Assembly: GCF_001442805.1 (NCBI RefSeq)
Contig: NZ_CP011131.1
Span: forward strand, 1,550,001-1,614,000
Source: Lysobacter gummosus
GTDB taxonomy: Bacteria > Pseudomonadota > Gammaproteobacteria > Xanthomonadales > Xanthomonadaceae
DNA: 64,000 bases
Reading direction: 5' to 3'
A model generated the notes under the pieces. It was not told the origin of the DNA, did no database searches, and saw only the letters and a list, made by a program, of their open reading frames with translations. Each line of letters begins with the position of its first letter. The first letter of the stretch is position 1. Positions 17,766 through 34,096 of this stretch are shown here, in pieces. The position numbers were made by a program, and so were the translations under genes.

Positions 17766-17946
17766 CCCTCTCCCGCTTGCCACCCAAGGTGACTTCCTTC
17801 GGGGCGCGGGAGAGGGCTGGGGTGAGGGTGTGAGCGCCGTAGGCGCGAATGCTCTTGCTTGGAGTTCCACGACTGCTCGGGCCCTCACCCCAACCCCTCT
17901 CCCGCGCCCCGAAGGAAGTCACCTTGGGTGGCGAGCGGGAGAGGGG
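17766..17946. repeat. Family C long inverted repeat
   Basis: Arms of about 63 bases, nearly identical (one or two mismatches), enclose a loop of about 53 bases. Each arm contains CCCTCTCCCGC, then CCACCCAAGGTGACTTCC, then CGCGGGAGAGGG and TGGGGTGAGGG. It fills most of the 316-base gap between hutU and the SRPBCC gene, which converge, and may terminate both. Shorter relatives are at 28905-29058 and 31393-31529. Confidence 0.9.
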
Positions 17947-22770: not shown

Positions 22771-23931
22771 ATGCTCACCACCTTGGCCATCGCCAATTAC
22801 CGTTCCCTGCGCGAGCTGGTCGTGCCGATGGCGCGGCTCAACCTGGTCACCGGCGCCAACGGCAGCGGCAAGTCCAACCTCTACCGGGCCCTGCGCCTGC
22901 TGGCGGAAACCGCGCAGGGCGGGGTAGTGCCGGCGCTGGCGCGCGAGGGCGGGCTGCAATCGACGCTATGGGCCGGGCCGGAGACGATCAGCGCGCGCAT
23001 GAAGCGCGGCGAGGTGCCGATACAGGGCGGGCCGCGCAACGAACCGGTGGCCTTGCGCCTGGGTTTCGCCGGCGACGAGTACGGTTACGCGATCGATCTG
23101 GGCCTGCCGACGCCGAGCCAGTCGATGTTCGGTCACGATCCGCAGATCAAGCGCGAGGCGATCTGGAGCGGCCCGTTTCTGCGCAGTTCCAATCTGCTGG
23201 TGGACCGGCGCGGGGCGATGGCGCGGGTGCGCGACGGCCGTGGCTGGCGCGTCGCCGCCGAGCATCTGAGCTCGTTCGAGAGCCTGTTCGCGCAGCTCGC
23301 CGACCCGCGCGCGGCGCCGGAAGTGCTGAGCCTGCGCGAAACCATCCGCGGCTGGCGTTTCTACGATCATTTCCGCAGCGACGCGCAGGCGCCGGCGCGC
23401 CAGCCGCAGTTAGGCACGCGCACGCCGGTGTTGAGCCACGACGGCCGCGATCTGGCCGCGGCGTGGCAGACCATCGTCGAGATCGGCGACCCGCGCGCGC
23501 TGGCCGCGGCGGTGGACGACGCCTTCCCCGGCGCCCAGGTCGCGGTGGTCGGCGAAGGCGGGCGCTTCGCCCTGGAGTTTTCCCAGCACGGCTTGTTGCG
23601 GCCGTTATCGGCGGCGGAATTGTCCGACGGCACCTTGCGTTACTTGTTGTGGATCGCCGCCCTGCACACGCCGCGGCCGCCGCCGCTGATGGTGCTCAAC
23701 GAACCGGAGACCAGCCTGCATCCGGACCTGTTGCCGGCGCTGGCGCGATTGATCGCGCACGCCTCCAGGCGCAGCCAGGTGTGGGTGGTGTCGCATGCCT
23801 CGCGGCTGATTTCGGCGTTGGAAGAGGAGCCGGAGTGCAACAGCGTGCATCTGCACAAGGAATTCAGTCAGACCGCGATTGTGGGGCAAGGGATGCTGGA
23901 TGCGCCGGCGTGGTATTGGCCGGAGCGGTGA
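22771..23931 (+). CDS. AAA family ATPase (AAA_21 / COG4637-like)
   Basis: A 386-residue stand-alone ATPase of the ABC/SMC-like type. Walker A is GANGSGKS at 28-35, an ABC-like signature is SAAELSDGTLRYLLWIAALH, Walker B is LMVLNEPETSLHPDLLPAL near 305-320, and the switch His lies in VWVVSHASRL. Such proteins resemble OLD/RecF-type ATPases; close relatives have unknown cellular roles, and some work in phage defence when paired with a nuclease. No nuclease partner is next to it, and a family A repeat array follows, so it seems to stand alone. The ribosome site is weak; the start is set by the conserved LTTLAIANYRSL opening. Confidence 0.9.
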   Translation: MLTTLAIANYRSLRELVVPMARLNLVTGANGSGKSNLYRALRLLAETAQGGVVPALAREGGLQSTLWAGPETISARMKRGEVPIQGGPRNEPVALRLGFAGDEYGYAIDLGLPTPSQSMFGHDPQIKREAIWSGPFLRSSNLLVDRRGAMARVRDGRGWRVAAEHLSSFESLFAQLADPRAAPEVLSLRETIRGWRFYDHFRSDAQAPARQPQLGTRTPVLSHDGRDLAAAWQTIVEIGDPRALAAAVDDAFPGAQVAVVGEGGRFALEFSQHGLLRPLSAAELSDGTLRYLLWIAALHTPRPPPLMVLNEPETSLHPDLLPALARLIAHASRRSQVWVVSHASRLISALEEEPECNSVHLHKEFSQTAIVGQGMLDAPAWYWPER

Positions 23932-28159: not shown

Positions 28160-28879
28160 ATGAGTATTTTGGTCGTCGATCGATGGATGGAATATCGGGG
28201 AACCGTTGTCCACAGCATCGATACAGGGGCACGACAGGCCTACGCCTATTTGAGTCCGAACATCATCGTTACCGCCGACGGTGCGCCCGATGCGTACCAC
28301 CCGGACAATCTGGGCACCGGCCACATCCGCAAGACCCATTGGCCCGACGGCGACTGGCAGCGCGCGCTGGTGGCCGATCCGGACCATCCGCGGCGTCCGC
28401 TGCAACAGACCGGCGGACGCAACGCCGGCTACTTCGTCTCGATCACCGCCTTGAACGATCCGAGCCGATCGCGCACCGACCCGACGGCCTACGTCGATGC
28501 CGGCCGGATTCCGTATCTGGTGTTGCCGGCGCCGTTCCATGCCATCGACGGCAGCGGCGATCTGGGCGATTTCGTCGTCGCCTATCACCCGGTCACGCGC
28601 CGCTTCAGTTACGGGCTGATCGGCGACATCGGCGCCGACCGGCCTCTGGGCGAGATTTCCATGCGCATGGCCAGCGATCTGTCCGGCCACCGTGCCGAGG
28701 CCAAGAGCGGGCAGGGCGTGCCGTTCGGATCGATGCTGTGCCTGGTGTTTCCGAAATCGCGGATGACGCCGGCCTGGCCGATGCCGCCCGCGGCGATCCG
28801 CGCGCGTTGCGAGCACTTGCTGAAACGGCTGGGAGGGCAAATGCGGCTGCCGCAACTCGCGGAGGCCTTGGCGGAATAA
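28160..28879 (+). CDS. GH75-like (fungal chitosanase fold) protein without signal peptide
   Basis: A 239-residue protein whose sequence follows the glycoside hydrolase 75 pattern: TADGAPDAYHPDN (38-50), NAGYFVSITALNDPS, TDPTAYVDAGRIPYLVLPAP (107-126, cut to the conserved part), and GDIGADRPLGEIS (155-167). Asp156 and Glu165 occupy the places of the two catalytic acids known in fungal GH75 chitosanases. Such enzymes hydrolyse chitosan. No export signal is visible at the strongly supported start (AAGGAGGGAG upstream), so it may act in the cytoplasm, leave by another route, or use the fold differently. Recognition is from recalled family patterns. Confidence 0.72.
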   Translation: MSILVVDRWMEYRGTVVHSIDTGARQAYAYLSPNIIVTADGAPDAYHPDNLGTGHIRKTHWPDGDWQRALVADPDHPRRPLQQTGGRNAGYFVSITALNDPSRSRTDPTAYVDAGRIPYLVLPAPFHAIDGSGDLGDFVVAYHPVTRRFSYGLIGDIGADRPLGEISMRMASDLSGHRAEAKSGQGVPFGSMLCLVFPKSRMTPAWPMPPAAIRARCEHLLKRLGGQMRLPQLAEALAE

Positions 28880-28904: not shown

Positions 28905-29058
28905 TCCCTCTCCCGCTTGCCACCCAAGGTGACTTCCTTCGGGCGTGGGAGAGGGTTGGGGTGAGGGGGTGAGGGCCGTAGGCGCGAATGCTCTTGCTTG
29001 GATTCCTGTGACTGCCCGCACCCTCACCCCAACCCCTCTCCCGCGAGCGGGAGAGGGG
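28905..29058. repeat. Family C inverted repeat
   Basis: Left arm CCCTCTCCCGCTTGCC to TTGGGGTGAGGG, right arm CCCTCACCCCAACCCC to GGGAGAGGGG. The right arm lacks the 30-base inner piece found in the 17.8-kb copy, but the loop text (GCCGTAGGCGCGAATGCTCT) is nearly the same. It lies between convergent genes. Confidence 0.88.
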
Positions 29059-29124
29059 TTTAGTCGGCGTTTCTGCGATCGAATAGTTTGTAGCGGCTAA
29101 AGCAGCGACCGGCGCGCTTGTGAG

Positions 29125-30180
29125 TCAAGCGTGCGCGTCCAAACACAAATCCAGCCGCACCAAGCGGCCGAGCCGGTCGCGGCGCTGCGCACGCAGATAC
29201 CAATGCGCGCGCAGACGTTCCAGCGGCAGCGGCGGCAGCACCGCCTCGCCCCATAGCGTGAGTTCGTAATTGCGCGCGTGCAGCCAGTGCAGCAGCGCAT
29301 CGAAACGGCCCTGATCGTCGGGCAGCAGCAGATCGGCATCGCCGGGCGGGCGCGGCGCGGTGTCGTCGTCGCGCGACAACCAGGACGCGAAGCTGCCGAA
29401 CACTTCGAAGGCGAAGCCGGCCTCGGCCATCGCCCGCAGTTCGGCGCGGGTGCTGGCGATGCACGGGGTTTCGCGGGTCTTCTGAAAGATCAGCGCGTAC
29501 TCGTGACTGCGGTTGCTGCGCGTGGCGCCGGCCGGTAGCGCTTGCTTGTCGCGCTGATAACACAGCAGGCGCTCCTCGCGCGCCACGAACAAGCCGCGCA
29601 GCACGCCGGCCAGATCCCAGGCCAGCGGCAGCATCCGGTCCTGGATCGTCAGGTTCTCGACCATGGCGATGCAGAAACCGCCCTCGGGAAGGGCGCGGCG
29701 CACGGTGTGGAAGATGTCGCGCAGGCGGTGCAGATAGGCGGCGTAGTCGTTTTCCAGATAAAGCTGGCCTTCGTCCGGGCCGGCTTCATCGCTTGGCCAG
29801 CGACAGCCGAAGTAGGGCACGTTGGTCAGGCACAGATCGATCGCGCGCGGGATCGCGGTCTGCGGCAGGCTGCCGACCGCGATCGGCGCGTCCACGCCGT
29901 GGCGGCGCAGGCGTTCGCGCGCGAGTTCGGCGCGGGCGGCGTCGATCTCGATTCCGCAGCCGCTGCGACCTTCCAGCGCGGCGGCGAGCAAGGTGGTGCC
30001 GAAGCCGCAGAACGGATCGAACACGCATTGGCCGGGCTGGCTGAAATGGCGTACGAACGGACGCATCTGCGCGACCCAGCCGCAATCGCGGCCGCCGAAG
30101 CGGTCGCGCGCGCGCAGGTCGGCCGGCAGGTCGTGTTCCGGCGGATCGGGCTGCAACAGCAGCCAGCTGCGGCTATCCAT
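29125..30180 (-). CDS. DNA methyltransferase fused to a nucleotidyltransferase-like domain
   Basis: A 351-residue protein with two parts. Residues 1-235 are an S-adenosylmethionine DNA methyltransferase: a lead-in WVAQMRPFVRHFSQPGQ, motif I FDPFCGFGTT (54-63), acidic EID (78-80), and motif IV LTNVPYFG (118-125), an N/DPPY variant, then HEYALIF. Motif I precedes IV, as in gamma/zeta-type amino-methyltransferases. Residues 255-351 read as a minimal nucleotidyltransferase fold: GSF (262-264), GDADLLL (280-286) and RLVRLDLCLD (339-348), giving the GS...DxD...D triad. No known family combining the two comes to mind. It overlaps the upstream radical SAM gene by 8 bases. No restriction enzyme is adjacent. 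Confidence 0.8.
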   Translation of the reverse strand: MDSRSWLLLQPDPPEHDLPADLRARDRFGGRDCGWVAQMRPFVRHFSQPGQCVFDPFCGFGTTLLAAALEGRSGCGIEIDAARAELARERLRRHGVDAPIAVGSLPQTAIPRAIDLCLTNVPYFGCRWPSDEAGPDEGQLYLENDYAAYLHRLRDIFHTVRRALPEGGFCIAMVENLTIQDRMLPLAWDLAGVLRGLFVAREERLLCYQRDKQALPAGATRSNRSHEYALIFQKTRETPCIASTRAELRAMAEAGFAFEVFGSFASWLSRDDDTAPRPPGDADLLLPDDQGRFDALLHWLHARNYELTLWGEAVLPPLPLERLRAHWYLRAQRRDRLGRLVRLDLCLDAHA

Positions 30181-31339
30181 GCGCGCGCTCCGCGTCCGCC
30201 GATGATGCAGCAGCGGATTCCAGCGGCCACAGCACGTCGCGATCGGGTTGCCAGCCCGCGCACAGCCGGCCGTCGGCATGGAACACCAGCTTGTAGATGT
30301 CGCCGCTGGCGTGGCGGCGATGCATGGCGCTGTAGTCGGAGGATTCGAACACCACCTCCAGGCCGCTGATTTCATCGCGCAGGCGCAGGTTCCAGAAGTA
30401 ATAGCCTTCGGTGATCTGCAGCGGCGTCATTCGCGACCACCACGGCGCGGCCATGCAGTCGCCGAGCACCTGCTCGATCGCCACTCGTTCGCTTTCGACA
30501 TAGCGGCGCGTGCCGTTTTCGCGGTAGCCATCGCCCAGGCGCGAGAACTCGCGGAAGATCGCCGTGCCGGCGCCGCAACGCCGCGCCCAATCCAGATAGG
30601 CGGCGACGCCGTGCGCATCGTCCACGCCGCCGCGTTGCAGGATGCAGACCTGGCGCAGCGGAATTTCCTGCGCGATCGAGCGCGCGACCGTCTCGAACGC
30701 CGCGTTGCCGGCGATGGGCTCGCCGTCGCGGAAACGCATGATGCGTTGGTTGCGCGGCGCGTCGGGATGATGGCGCGACAGTTCGACCCAGGACAGGCCG
30801 AAGCGGGTCAGCGCCGCGATCAGCTCCGCGCCGCGGCCGCGGGCGAAGCCGGCGCCGTTGCTGTAGAGCACGCGGTCCTGGGCGACGATGCCGCCCTGTT
30901 CGGCCTGCTGCAGGGTACTCAGCAGTCGCAGGAACCAGTCTTCGTCGTCGCTGGATTCCAGGCCCGACAGCGACCACGACAGCGGCAGGCCGCGCAGTTG
31001 CGCCAGCGCTTGGGTCAGCGTCGCGAAATACTCCGGTCCGGGCCGCAGGGTTTGCGCCATCGTGCCGCGTTCGACCGGCTGCAGGGTTTCCGAGCAGAAG
31101 CGGCAGCGCGCCGAACATGGGCGTACCGAGGCGTAAGGGGTGAAGGTGATCGGTTGGGCGAATCGATAGCGCCGGCCGCCGAGGCTGTGCGCATGCCAAC
31201 GGGTGGCGTCGTGTTCGACTGGGGCGCGGCGGGCGAGCTGCGGCGTGCTGGCGCGCAGGCGTTCGAACAGGGAGGAGGCTGCGCTGAGGGGCAGGGTCGC
31301 CGGGTCTGCGGCGGCGAGCCCTTCGATGGGGGCTTGCAT
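30173..31339 (-). CDS. Radical SAM protein
   Basis: A 388-residue enzyme with the radical SAM cluster motif CSARCRFC (Cys75, Cys79, Cys82; CX3CX2C) preceded by ITFTPYASVRP. A central barrel region (LSWSLSGLESSDDEDWFLRL, VLYSNGAGFARG, ISWVELSRHHPD-like) and a C-terminal part (EGYYFWNLRLRDEISGLEVV, YKLVFHADGRLCAGW) follow; the last segment has one Cys only, so no SPASM-type second cluster is evident. It uses SAM and a 4Fe-4S cluster for radical chemistry on an unknown substrate. The overlap with the methyltransferase-nucleotidyltransferase gene implies a joint pathway. Confidence 0.85.
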   Translation of the reverse strand: MQAPIEGLAAADPATLPLSAASSLFERLRASTPQLARRAPVEHDATRWHAHSLGGRRYRFAQPITFTPYASVRPCSARCRFCSETLQPVERGTMAQTLRPGPEYFATLTQALAQLRGLPLSWSLSGLESSDDEDWFLRLLSTLQQAEQGGIVAQDRVLYSNGAGFARGRGAELIAALTRFGLSWVELSRHHPDAPRNQRIMRFRDGEPIAGNAAFETVARSIAQEIPLRQVCILQRGGVDDAHGVAAYLDWARRCGAGTAIFREFSRLGDGYRENGTRRYVESERVAIEQVLGDCMAAPWWSRMTPLQITEGYYFWNLRLRDEISGLEVVFESSDYSAMHRRHASGDIYKLVFHADGRLCAGWQPDRDVLWPLESAAASSADAERAHG

Positions 31340-31392: not shown

Positions 31393-31529
31393 CCCTCACC
31401 CTAGCCCTCTCCCGCAAGCGGGAGAGGGGACGGTTCTGTGGCTATTCGATGGCTTCGACCTGAGCCCCTCTCCCGCTTGCCACCCAAGGTGACTTCCTTC
31501 GGGGCGCGGGAGAGGGGTTGGGGTGAGGG
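31393..31529. repeat. Family C repeat (two hairpins)
   Basis: A short hairpin (CCCTCTCCCGC, AAGC, GGGAGAGGG) near 31404-31428 and a second arm with the CCACCCAAGGTGACTTCC core near 31468-31529. It lies between the radical SAM gene and the end of nadV. Confidence 0.85.
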
Positions 31530-31539
31530 CCGTCAGCGC

Positions 31540-32964
31540 TCAAAGCCGCGTAGCGTTAGCCAACTCGCGCACCTGCGCGAACGTCCAGTCGTTGACGATC
31601 CTGCCGTCCTCCCACACCGTCACCATCGCATCGTCGAAGCCCAGCGGCTTCACCGCTTCTTCCAGCGACGCCGCTTCCGGCGGCACCGGCACGGTCTTGA
31701 AGTGGCCGTATTCGCGATGGCGCAGCAGTGTCATGCGGCCGCGCTTGCTCGACTTGCCCTTGTCGGTGACCGGGTCCTTGTAGACGTCGATCCACTCGCC
31801 GTTGACCCGCGCCGCGGAACACTTCAGCGCGAACTTCTGCGTATCGCGATCCAACCGCTGCAACAGCGCGCCGCCCATGCCGAAGGCGAGGTTGTCGGTG
31901 GCGTAGCCGTAGCTGGTGATGCGTTCCAGGATCGCGCGGATGCTGGTCGGGTTGATGCCGTCGCCCTGGATCACCCGCACGTGGTTGAGCACCTTGTAGC
32001 CCTTGCTGTTGACGGTATGGCCGAAGGCTTCGTCTAGCATGGTCACGCACTGGTGCACGACATCGACCGGATCGCCGGAGTCCGGACGCACCACCAGGGT
32101 CGCGCCCGAAGCGATGACCTCATCGCGCAATGTCTTGCCCCAATGCTCGCGGATCGCATGGAAGATGTCGTAGCTGTCGGAGACCACCGCGACGATCGCG
32201 CCGGGCTTGCCGAACTGGGTCAGCATGTTGCGGTACGCGTCCACCTCGTGTTCGCGTCCCCAACTGGTGATGGTGCTGTGCTCGGCGGCCGGAATGGAGA
32301 AGCCGGCCATCGGTTCGTGATAATAGCGGCGCGCCAGCAACAGGCCCGACACCGTGTCGGTGCCGAGGAAATTCACCAGATGCGCGGCGCCGCCGAACGC
32401 CGCCGACTCGGTGCTGGATACGCCGCGCGCGCCGAAGTCATGCAGCTTGAACGGCAGCTGGCCTTCCGGATCGTCGCTGGTGCGTTCCAGGAACTGGCGG
32501 ATGGTCTGCTTGGCATGCCAACTGATCGTCGCCACCGTCACCGGATACCACAGGCGCAGCAGCAGCGTTTCCAGGTACGACGGCACCCAGTAGGCGTTCG
32601 GGTCGGTGGATTCGATCGTCACCAGGGCCTGATGCGTCGGCACCACCGTGCCTTCGGGCACGGCGCGGATACGGATCGGCATCAGTCCGCCGTGATGATC
32701 GACGATGTAGCGCCAGCCGGTCTCGTTGAACGGTTCGCCGTGCGCGGCGAACAGGTCGCGCGCCTCAATGATGTCGGCGTGGGTGATCGGCTTGGCCAGA
32801 TACTCTTTCAAGATCGCCTGCAGGCCGAAGAACACGGTGCGATCGTGCACGCCGCCGCGCGATTCGACGTAGAAGAACGTCGCATCGGTGCCGGGCGGGT
32901 ATTGCAGCCAGTGGCTGGCCTTATAGCTGTCGGTGTTGAGCAGCAGGTTGTCGAGGCATTGCAT
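31540..32964 (-). CDS. nadV: Nicotinamide phosphoribosyltransferase
   Basis: NadV (NAMPT) joins nicotinamide and PRPP to make NMN. The protein has 474 residues. NTDSYKASHWLQYPPGT opens the fold, LHDFGARGVSS carries the catalytic His175 (human His247 equivalent), NFLGTDTVSG and LVVRPDSGDP bind the ribosyl phosphates, and FGMGGALLQRLDRDT is conserved. The ATG at 32964 has GGAG nine bases upstream. With the NadM-Nudix gene 76 bases upstream it makes a two-gene NAD salvage operon that bypasses deamidation of nicotinamide. Confidence 0.96.
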   Translation of the reverse strand: MQCLDNLLLNTDSYKASHWLQYPPGTDATFFYVESRGGVHDRTVFFGLQAILKEYLAKPITHADIIEARDLFAAHGEPFNETGWRYIVDHHGGLMPIRIRAVPEGTVVPTHQALVTIESTDPNAYWVPSYLETLLLRLWYPVTVATISWHAKQTIRQFLERTSDDPEGQLPFKLHDFGARGVSSTESAAFGGAAHLVNFLGTDTVSGLLLARRYYHEPMAGFSIPAAEHSTITSWGREHEVDAYRNMLTQFGKPGAIVAVVSDSYDIFHAIREHWGKTLRDEVIASGATLVVRPDSGDPVDVVHQCVTMLDEAFGHTVNSKGYKVLNHVRVIQGDGINPTSIRAILERITSYGYATDNLAFGMGGALLQRLDRDTQKFALKCSAARVNGEWIDVYKDPVTDKGKSSKRGRMTLLRHREYGHFKTVPVPPEAASLEEAVKPLGFDDAMVTVWEDGRIVNDWTFAQVRELANATRL

Positions 32965-33040
32965 GACGGAAGCTCCTTCGCGTCTGGGAGTAGCCGGCGG
33001 TCTGTCCACCGGCGCGTGTGGCCGGGCGGTCCCTGTGGAC

Positions 33041-34096
33041 TTAACCGCGGCCGAGAAAGAATTCGAGGATGTGCAGGTGGTCTTCGAACAATTGCGGGCT
33101 CATCTCCAGCGCTTCGCTGACCGGAATCCAGCGCGCCTTGTCTGCATCGTCGCCGCCGCGCACGGCGGGCAGTTCGCCGGCCGGGAATTCGAAGTGGAAG
33201 GCGTGGGTGATGGTGCGGCCGCGCGCGCTGCGTTCGGGATGGTCGAACACGTGCTCGCCCTTGATCGAACCCTTGAGCACCGGCAGCGGCAGCTTGAGCC
33301 GGGTTTCCTCGCGCAGCTCGCGCAAGCAGGCGTCGAGCACGGTCTCGTCCTGGCCGACGAAGCCGCCCGGCAGGGCCCACAGGCCCTTGCCCGGTTCGGC
33401 GCGACGGCGCACCAGCAGCACGTGGCCGGAATGCACGATCACCGCATCGGTGGTGACGAAGGTCGGCGCATACGGCGCATCGGCCCAGGCGGCGCGGTAC
33501 TGCTCGATGAACCGGTACTCGGCGACCAGCTGGGTGAACGCCGGAGAGCTCTTGCGGAAGGCTTCGAGCATGTCGAACACCGGGCCGGGCACGTTGGCGC
33601 GGATCAGCATCAGGCCGCCGTGGCTGTCGATCTGGTTGGCTTCGAACAGATAGCGGCGCAGCTCGGTCGCCGACAGCGTGGCGGTGTGGCTGACATCGAC
33701 CAGCGGCCACTGCGGGAATTCGCGCAGGTAGTAGCTGGAGGCGTCCTTGTCCATGCCGATCAGGCCGATGCGCGCGTCGGCATCGCCGCCGTCGGCGCGT
33801 ACGGCCTCGGCGACGGTGCGCTGCACGTTGGCGATCCACAGGCTCTCGTTATAGAGGTGATCGCGCAGCGGGCGCACGATCAGCCGGCCGTCGGCGTCGT
33901 TGAGCGCGGCCTGGATCATCACCGCGCGCTCGGCGACGGTGAAGGGGTTCTTGATGGTGCGGGGGGTGTCGGCGGAACCGACCAGGAAGATGACTTTGGC
34001 GGCCTTGGCCAGGCCATGGCGGGCGACGGCGGCGTGACCGTTGTGGAAAGGCTCGAAACGGCCGATGAAAACCAGGTAATCGTATTCGTGTGCCAT
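33041..34096 (-). CDS. nadM: Bifunctional NMN adenylyltransferase / Nudix hydrolase
   Basis: A 351-residue fusion. The N-terminal half is a NadM-type nucleotidyltransferase with VFIGRFEPFHNGH (9-21, HxGH) and SATELRRYLFE; it adenylates NMN to NAD. The C-terminal half is a Nudix domain with the box GFVGQDETVLDACLRELREE followed by TRL, where the usual Gly near its end is Arg. Similar fusions (for example in Synechocystis) hydrolyse ADP-ribose. It is the first gene of the operon with nadV, so nicotinamide goes to NMN and then NAD with cleanup of ADP-ribose. Confidence 0.94.
   Translation of the reverse strand: MAHEYDYLVFIGRFEPFHNGHAAVARHGLAKAAKVIFLVGSADTPRTIKNPFTVAERAVMIQAALNDADGRLIVRPLRDHLYNESLWIANVQRTVAEAVRADGGDADARIGLIGMDKDASSYYLREFPQWPLVDVSHTATLSATELRRYLFEANQIDSHGGLMLIRANVPGPVFDMLEAFRKSSPAFTQLVAEYRFIEQYRAAWADAPYAPTFVTTDAVIVHSGHVLLVRRRAEPGKGLWALPGGFVGQDETVLDACLRELREETRLKLPLPVLKGSIKGEHVFDHPERSARGRTITHAFHFEFPAGELPAVRGGDDADKARWIPVSEALEMSPQLFEDHLHILEFFLGRG

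Follow-up and report, generated by a model that had tools for sequence, protein, structure and literature searches.

What do a radical S-adenosylmethionine (SAM) enzyme and a methyltransferase with a nucleotidyltransferase at its C-terminus do together when their genes overlap? This question is raised by a locus of Lysobacter gummosus, which lies in a 64,000-nucleotide stretch (hereafter the window, whose numbering is used throughout) of a genome available as a single contig of 6.06 Mb. The radical SAM enzyme (388 aa) is encoded at 30173..31339 and the fusion protein, MT~NT (351 aa), at 29125..30180, both on the reverse strand, as are all features given below unless a plus sign is shown. Based on Pfam, AlphaFold2 and fold matches, MT~NT is comprised of a methyltransferase (MT) domain (residues 1-236) and a nucleotidyltransferase (NT) domain (residues 241-351). 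The open reading frame coordinates confirm that the two genes overlap by 8 bases (ATGGATAG, 30173..30180), as noted in a preliminary description of this DNA; relatives of MT~NT align from the ATG at 30180, versus the start at 30375 in the list of open reading frames. A tentative answer, which is quite possible, is that the two genes constitute one accessory biosynthetic module on an operon for salvage from nicotinamide via nicotinamide mononucleotide (NMN) to nicotinamide adenine dinucleotide (NAD+), and that the module acts on a nucleotide-type substrate.

The radical SAM and MT~NT genes form a real, conserved module. Full-length radical SAM relatives were examined at 51 loci (48 from genomes and three from named contigs), and at all of them the methyltransferase gene is located directly downstream on the same strand, the aligned stretches being separated by -62 to 76 bp. 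Two of these loci (L021 and L022) duplicate genomes already in the set (G628 and G611, respectively), so that 49 genomes are represented; the count takes in these 51 loci, and other radical SAM carriers of the family survey fall outside it. The NT part was detected by tblastn at 49 of the 51 loci; in the remaining two, the stored stretch is short (G650) or the NT is too diverged for tblastn, its invariant residues being present in the alignment (G530). Linkage of the two genes elsewhere, which had been proposed as a check, was found at every locus tested. The closest named relatives of both proteins originate from Lysobacter, and a contig scan of genomes with one protein as query yielded 8 close loci.

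The cluster motif and the predicted barrel fold indicate that the 388-aa protein belongs to the radical SAM superfamily. The CX3CX2C motif seen earlier (CSARCRFC, Cys75/79/82; residues 75-82, 31094..31117) is indeed present and is invariant in 56/56 close and 31/31 broader relatives, which were hand-chosen for alignment. The predicted fold agrees with it, since the AlphaFold2 model (pLDDT 92.1) has radical SAM enzymes as its best matches. No Pfam or NCBIfam model, PF04055 included, matched the protein at E <= 1, and the best E value in PDB sequence searches with radical SAM profiles was 0.027 (PqqE). The fold is near those of MoaA and viperin, which act on nucleotides, and equally near those of peptide- and lipid-acting enzymes. 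Beyond the first motif, only C232 and C360 are conserved cysteines, and C360 is absent in some relatives.

With regard to the MT domain, Pfam gave N6_N4_Mtase (PF01555; 4e-18, above its cut-off) and UPF0020 (1.3e-5). Motif I (FDPFCGFGTT, residues 54-63, 29992..30021) and a DPPY-like motif IV (TNVPYFGC, residues 119-126, 29803..29826) are conserved, with D55, P56, F57 and G59 in the former and P122, Y123, F124 and G125 in the latter invariant in 51/51 aligned sequences. These motifs place the domain, by sequence, among the SAM-dependent amino-methyltransferases, as implied in the preliminary description by FDPFCGFGTT and LTNVPYFG; the substrates of such enzymes are planar amines or amides. In the AlphaFold2 model of MT~NT (pLDDT 92.7), the top structural scores for this domain belong to the tRNA m2G methyltransferases Trm11/TrmN/Trm14. 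About 50 residues precede motif I, and no THUMP match was found in MT~NT with Pfam at E <= 1; the Trm11 family model TIGR01177 scored 30 bits and did not reach its cut-off of 316.55. Both the MT core (median pI 5.9, mean net charge -3.7) and the NT domain (mean net charge -4.0) are acidic, these figures having no control set beside them, and MT~NT offers no room for a target-recognition domain.

The fold relatives of the MT domain favour RNA as the substrate. It could be hypermodified if the Trm11-like domain methylated guanine N2, the radical SAM enzyme altered that base or one close to it, and the NT domain acted on an RNA end or positioned the RNA, and such a system would represent a new modification route. 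However, function is not shown by a shared fold, a THUMP match is lacking, both the MT core and the NT domain are acidic, and this scheme leaves the NAMPT gene described below unexplained and sits poorly with a module that is patchy and repeatedly lost. RNA hypermodification is thus considered possible but somewhat unlikely. A small substrate is favoured instead by the acidic MT core and by an MT~NT that leaves no space for a recognition domain.

The C-terminal domain of MT~NT (residues 241-351, 29128..29460) was delimited by hhalign against NTP_transf_5 members and by the order of its secondary-structure elements. Its GSF...GDADLLL...LDLCLD segments had been likened to the triad of a minimal nucleotidyltransferase, and profile comparison supports the likeness: against 13 NTP_transf_5 sequences, hhalign gave a probability of 90.6% (E 1.3e-6), versus 0.5% for a control profile. 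The catalytic residues G262 and S263 (29392..29397), D281 and D283 of the DxD motif D281-A-D283 (29332..29340), and the third carboxylate D344 (29149..29151) are invariant in 51/51 aligned sequences, and the secondary-structure order in the model of the whole MT~NT fits a nucleotidyltransferase. These comparisons support the assignment as a putative DNA polymerase beta-type nucleotidyltransferase homologue with an intact triad. Pfam matches of the domain are weak (MdcG, E 0.0078; NTP_transf_5, 0.02; each with 1/12 members and among eight weak families), and PDB searches gave no match with the single sequence and a best E of 0.1 with the profile, to a protein other than a nucleotidyltransferase; the weak Pfam and PDB-profile results were obtained with alignment A7, in which L117 is misframed, and this sequence was left out of alignment A9. 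No nucleotidyltransferase occurs among the best 50 rows of the MT~NT fold lists because the MT domain fills these lists. Because the domain is small and MNT-like and its triad is intact, it might also suggest a toxin-antitoxin-like module of the MNT/HEPN kind; nevertheless, the partner has no HEPN match (no Pfam at E <= 1) and folds as a radical SAM enzyme, which makes such a module extremely unlikely.

The neighbouring genes hint at what such a substrate might be. The conserved unit exceeds the coordinates given earlier, as two same-strand genes lie directly upstream: NAMPT, encoding nicotinamide phosphoribosyltransferase (31540..32970; NAMPT_N 4.3e-29, NAPRTase 2e-64, and PRK09198.1 2.9e-206, the last of which is labelled nicotinate phosphoribosyltransferase in NCBIfam), and NadM, encoding a bifunctional NMN adenylyltransferase/Nudix protein (33041..34096; PRK05379.1-5 2.6e-216). 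The gap between NAMPT and the radical SAM gene is 200 bp and that between NadM/Nudix and NAMPT is 70 bp. This block, together with the co-occurrence of the pair with unlinked NAMPT genes, is the main context that the preliminary description had missed. NadM and NAMPT are found directly upstream in 25/27 pair-bearing loci longer than 8 kb (23/25 genomes without duplicates), the exceptions being loci L061 and L067. The outer flanks of the long loci comprise several unrelated sets, and the four genes are thus kept together beyond general synteny. The dN/dS values against two relatives are 0.23-0.24 for the radical SAM gene, 0.23-0.32 for MT~NT and 0.03-0.11 for NAMPT and NadM, which points to two functional genes under weaker constraint than NAMPT/NadM. 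Taken with the pairing at all loci and the invariant residues, these values argue that the pair is more than chance.

A search of 297 genomes of the family gave radical SAM matches in 52 of them and NAMPT matches in 93. The 204 genomes without NAMPT gave a single radical SAM match, G524, which was excluded from the carrier count as weak (E 3.3e-4), and all of the 51 carriers (46 full-length and 5 broken) have NAMPT. In 50 of the 51 family copies, the radical SAM gene shares the strand of NAMPT and follows it at a distance of -10 to 272 bp, and Fisher's test for the association of the two genes gave 6e-32, kinship ignored. In a sample of 60 genomes of relatives, all 18 carriers fall among the 24 genomes with NAMPT. 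The association also occurs at a distance. In the sample of family f16, which probably belongs to Burkholderiales judging from a 23S probe, 3/299 genomes carry the radical SAM gene. In genus g119, probably Variovorax judging from named homologues, it is present in 7/61 genomes; NAMPT was found in 6/7 of these carriers versus 9/51 non-carriers searched (54 exist; p = 0.0007, kinship ignored), and in the carriers it lies on another contig or >1 Mb from the pair. The two carriers of genus g601, as well as G046 and G568, likewise have NAMPT on other contigs. In Burkholderiales and in one other family, the pair is not linked to NAMPT but mostly co-occurs with it, and the independent cases are few. 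They number about three or four by our reading of a NAMPT tree, which holds 16/17 NAMPT hits and the window's NAMPT (on a very long branch) and was built from the best aligned piece per row; G1355, with a NAMPT hit split in two, was left out.

At 6/29 further NAMPT loci (L075-L103; 22 without a radical SAM match, 5 broken carriers, and 2 carriers with an unlinked pair), remnants of the radical SAM or methyltransferase gene directly follow a full NAMPT frame (G600, G626, G637, G680, G683 and G692; loci L095-L099 and L085), and NadM is partial or undetected in some. The decay is asymmetric: fragments of the pair are found beside intact NAMPT, and no carrier in the family is without NAMPT. Outside the family, the radical SAM gene is rare: a phylum sample has it in 3/398 genomes, of which one is that of the window itself and another gave a weak match, and a profile search of a class sample found it in 3/369, among them again the genome of the window and the distant relative G997.

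On these grounds, the favoured account is as follows. The operon would run NadM/Nudix, NAMPT, radical SAM, MT~NT, with co-transcription presumed. The NMN/NAD pool is favoured by the link to NAMPT, and the radical SAM enzyme would introduce a carbon-centred change on a nucleotide-type small molecule that comes from, or acts on, the NMN/NAD/ADP-ribose pool. The Trm11-like domain would N-methylate a planar amide or exocyclic amine, for which the nicotinamide carboxamide is a conceivable target by analogy, and the NT domain would join a nucleoside monophosphate to the product, yielding a modified nucleotide, dinucleotide or adenylylated metabolite. The three activities would thus act in one pathway on a small substrate, presumably in this order. 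In a narrower form of this account, which is unlikely as it stands, NMN, NAD or ADP-ribose would be the starting material from which the three activities make a modified dinucleotide that serves as cofactor or signal, an undescribed branch of NAD metabolism. Should the module act on NAD-related nucleotides, soil and plant-associated bacteria would have a new pathway to a cofactor or signal; if the narrower form is true, these bacteria make a relative of NAD that nobody has looked for. The earlier proposal that the two genes modify DNA, or tRNA/nucleotides, is kept in its second part, whereas its DNA part is not supported.

Several observations weigh against the favoured account. Of the 93 NAMPT genomes of the family, 42 have no radical SAM match, so that NAD salvage does not need the module. 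The family pattern is largely inherited, and the p-values ignore kinship; the NAMPTs of the g119 carriers cluster in the tree, and their six co-occurrences may reflect one or two events. G1377 (86% complete, 450 contigs) has the pair and no NAMPT hit, a Hymenobacter plasmid with a related pair carries no NAMPT (the plasmid only), and the module evolves faster than NAMPT. Moreover, the nearest sequence profile of the MT domain is that of a putative DNA methylase, 2zie (2.7e-27), and its nearest solved folds act on tRNA.

The Hymenobacter swuensis plasmid encodes a radical SAM relative (38%, tblastn) followed by a stand-alone 171-aa protein that shares 38% identity with the NT domain across 90 residues, and no methyltransferase match was found in the 20,948 bases read. 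This one locus suggests that the radical SAM and NT genes may be the older pair. Further members of the radical SAM family were found in proteins attributed to Rhodocytophaga, Flavilitoribacter, Calditrichota, Polyangiaceae and Myxococcota (among the best 120 of 377 hits). Plasmid and phage searches revealed distant radical SAM relatives, with no NT partner detected, in Embleya and in Dulem virus 40. The relatives in Embleya (L024 9440-11979) and in a genome of the same class (L068 6132-8361) have an extra N-terminal part and are followed by a gene that is aminotransferase-like by eye. In Dulem virus 40 (L027 9171-11324), a gene named NAT adjoins two radical SAM genes, and three viral contigs (L072-L074) contain close relatives of the second radical SAM gene. 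A stand-alone methyltransferase that is 36% identical to the MT domain and has no NT match is encoded on a Streptomyces plasmid (L025 9986-10660). Another, 30% identical, on a Haloferax plasmid (L026 9788-13382), adjoins a UvrD helicase with a PD-(D/E)XK / Cas4-like nuclease domain and is perhaps part of a separate defence context.

The module could instead make a specialised, nucleotide-containing natural product, the NAD genes being mere historical neighbours. Its patchy distribution and repeated decay fit this idea, as do the aminotransferase-like genes at L024 and L068. The co-occurrence with unlinked NAMPT speaks against it, however, and no gene besides NAMPT and NadM is conserved with the pair across lineages; a specialised metabolite is accordingly regarded as distinctly unlikely.

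A reading as DNA modification, restriction-modification or another phage defence draws on the 2zie profile and on PADLOC matches of MT~NT to type II methyltransferases (and to mad2, 1e-13). NAD salvage enzymes have also been proposed to serve phages against NAD-depleting defence (PMC9503650). The matches of MT~NT in PADLOC and PHROGs are mostly to generic methyltransferases, and the radical SAM protein has none in either. No nuclease was found among the immediate neighbours scanned (NAMPT, NadM and an unassigned protein at 28160-28879), in keeping with the earlier remark that no restriction enzyme is adjacent; the endonuclease scan of the window covered these and 22771-23931. The genes on either side are ordinary ones that are shared within lineages. 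A viral origin was considered as well, and three pattern scans of viral contigs, which detect only copies holding the patterns, returned neither the pair nor any relative other than a 38-residue methyltransferase match (L071); a fourth scan with the Dulem phage protein gave only that protein's own relatives. With no room for a recognition domain, tRNA m2G-type folds, an acidic core, ordinary flanks and no viral copy in the pattern scans, the DNA substrate and the defence or self-marking role once suggested are not supported, and no observation favours restriction-modification or defence above the alternatives. DNA modification and defence are unlikely, and very little probability is assigned to them.

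Two other features of the window were recorded. The gene at 22771-23931 (+) encodes an AAA_21 ATPase with strong PADLOC matches to HEC-01A and AriA; it shares the same neighbourhood in 11/29 loci compared, window included, and is therefore perhaps not a mobile defence gene. Short interspersed palindromic repeats with CCCTCTCCCGC arms, some with CCACCCAAGGTGACTTCCTTCGGG, are present at 17766-17945, 28906-29060 and 31405-31520, and two of these sets bracket the radical SAM / MT~NT pair.

Each domain comes from a known superfamily, while the module as a whole is apparently undescribed: in the portion of the open-licence literature available, no paper was found that deals with the gene pair, with the MT~NT fusion or with the tie to NAD salvage. 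The nearest known system for the upstream genes is the NadV-NadM NAD+ salvage of phages and bacteria, also named NARP2, in which NAMPT and NadM/Nudix are adjacent, as they are here on one strand. NadV and NadM have been described in phages, and the four-gene block differs from that system in that the word "radical" is absent from a review of these phage genes, whose consulted passages name no MT~NT partner (PMC9503650). The MT domain resembles Trm11/TrmN/Trm14 in fold and in motif order (I then IV); MT~NT differs from them in having no THUMP match, a C-terminal NT domain and a radical SAM partner. The motif IV of Trm11/TrmN/Trm14 is of the DPPY type, versus NVPYFG in MT~NT. With the DNA amino-methyltransferases (PF01555; 2zie, a putative modification methylase), both conserved regions of the MT domain align by profile, although in 2zie their order is swapped (profile 42-94 with chain 228-280, and profile 110-180 with chain 37-106), and MT~NT, unlike these enzymes, has no recognition region. 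The GS and DxD region of NTP_transf_5 (PF14907) aligns with the NT domain, which is much shorter (~111 aa versus 249 model positions); the stand-alone protein of Hymenobacter, at 171 aa, exceeds the NT domain in length. Finally, MoaA has a second, C-terminal set of cluster cysteines. The radical SAM protein described here differs from MoaA, PqqE and SkfB in its lack of a PF04055 match, and it has apparently one cluster motif and signatures of its own, SLSGLE and GYY.
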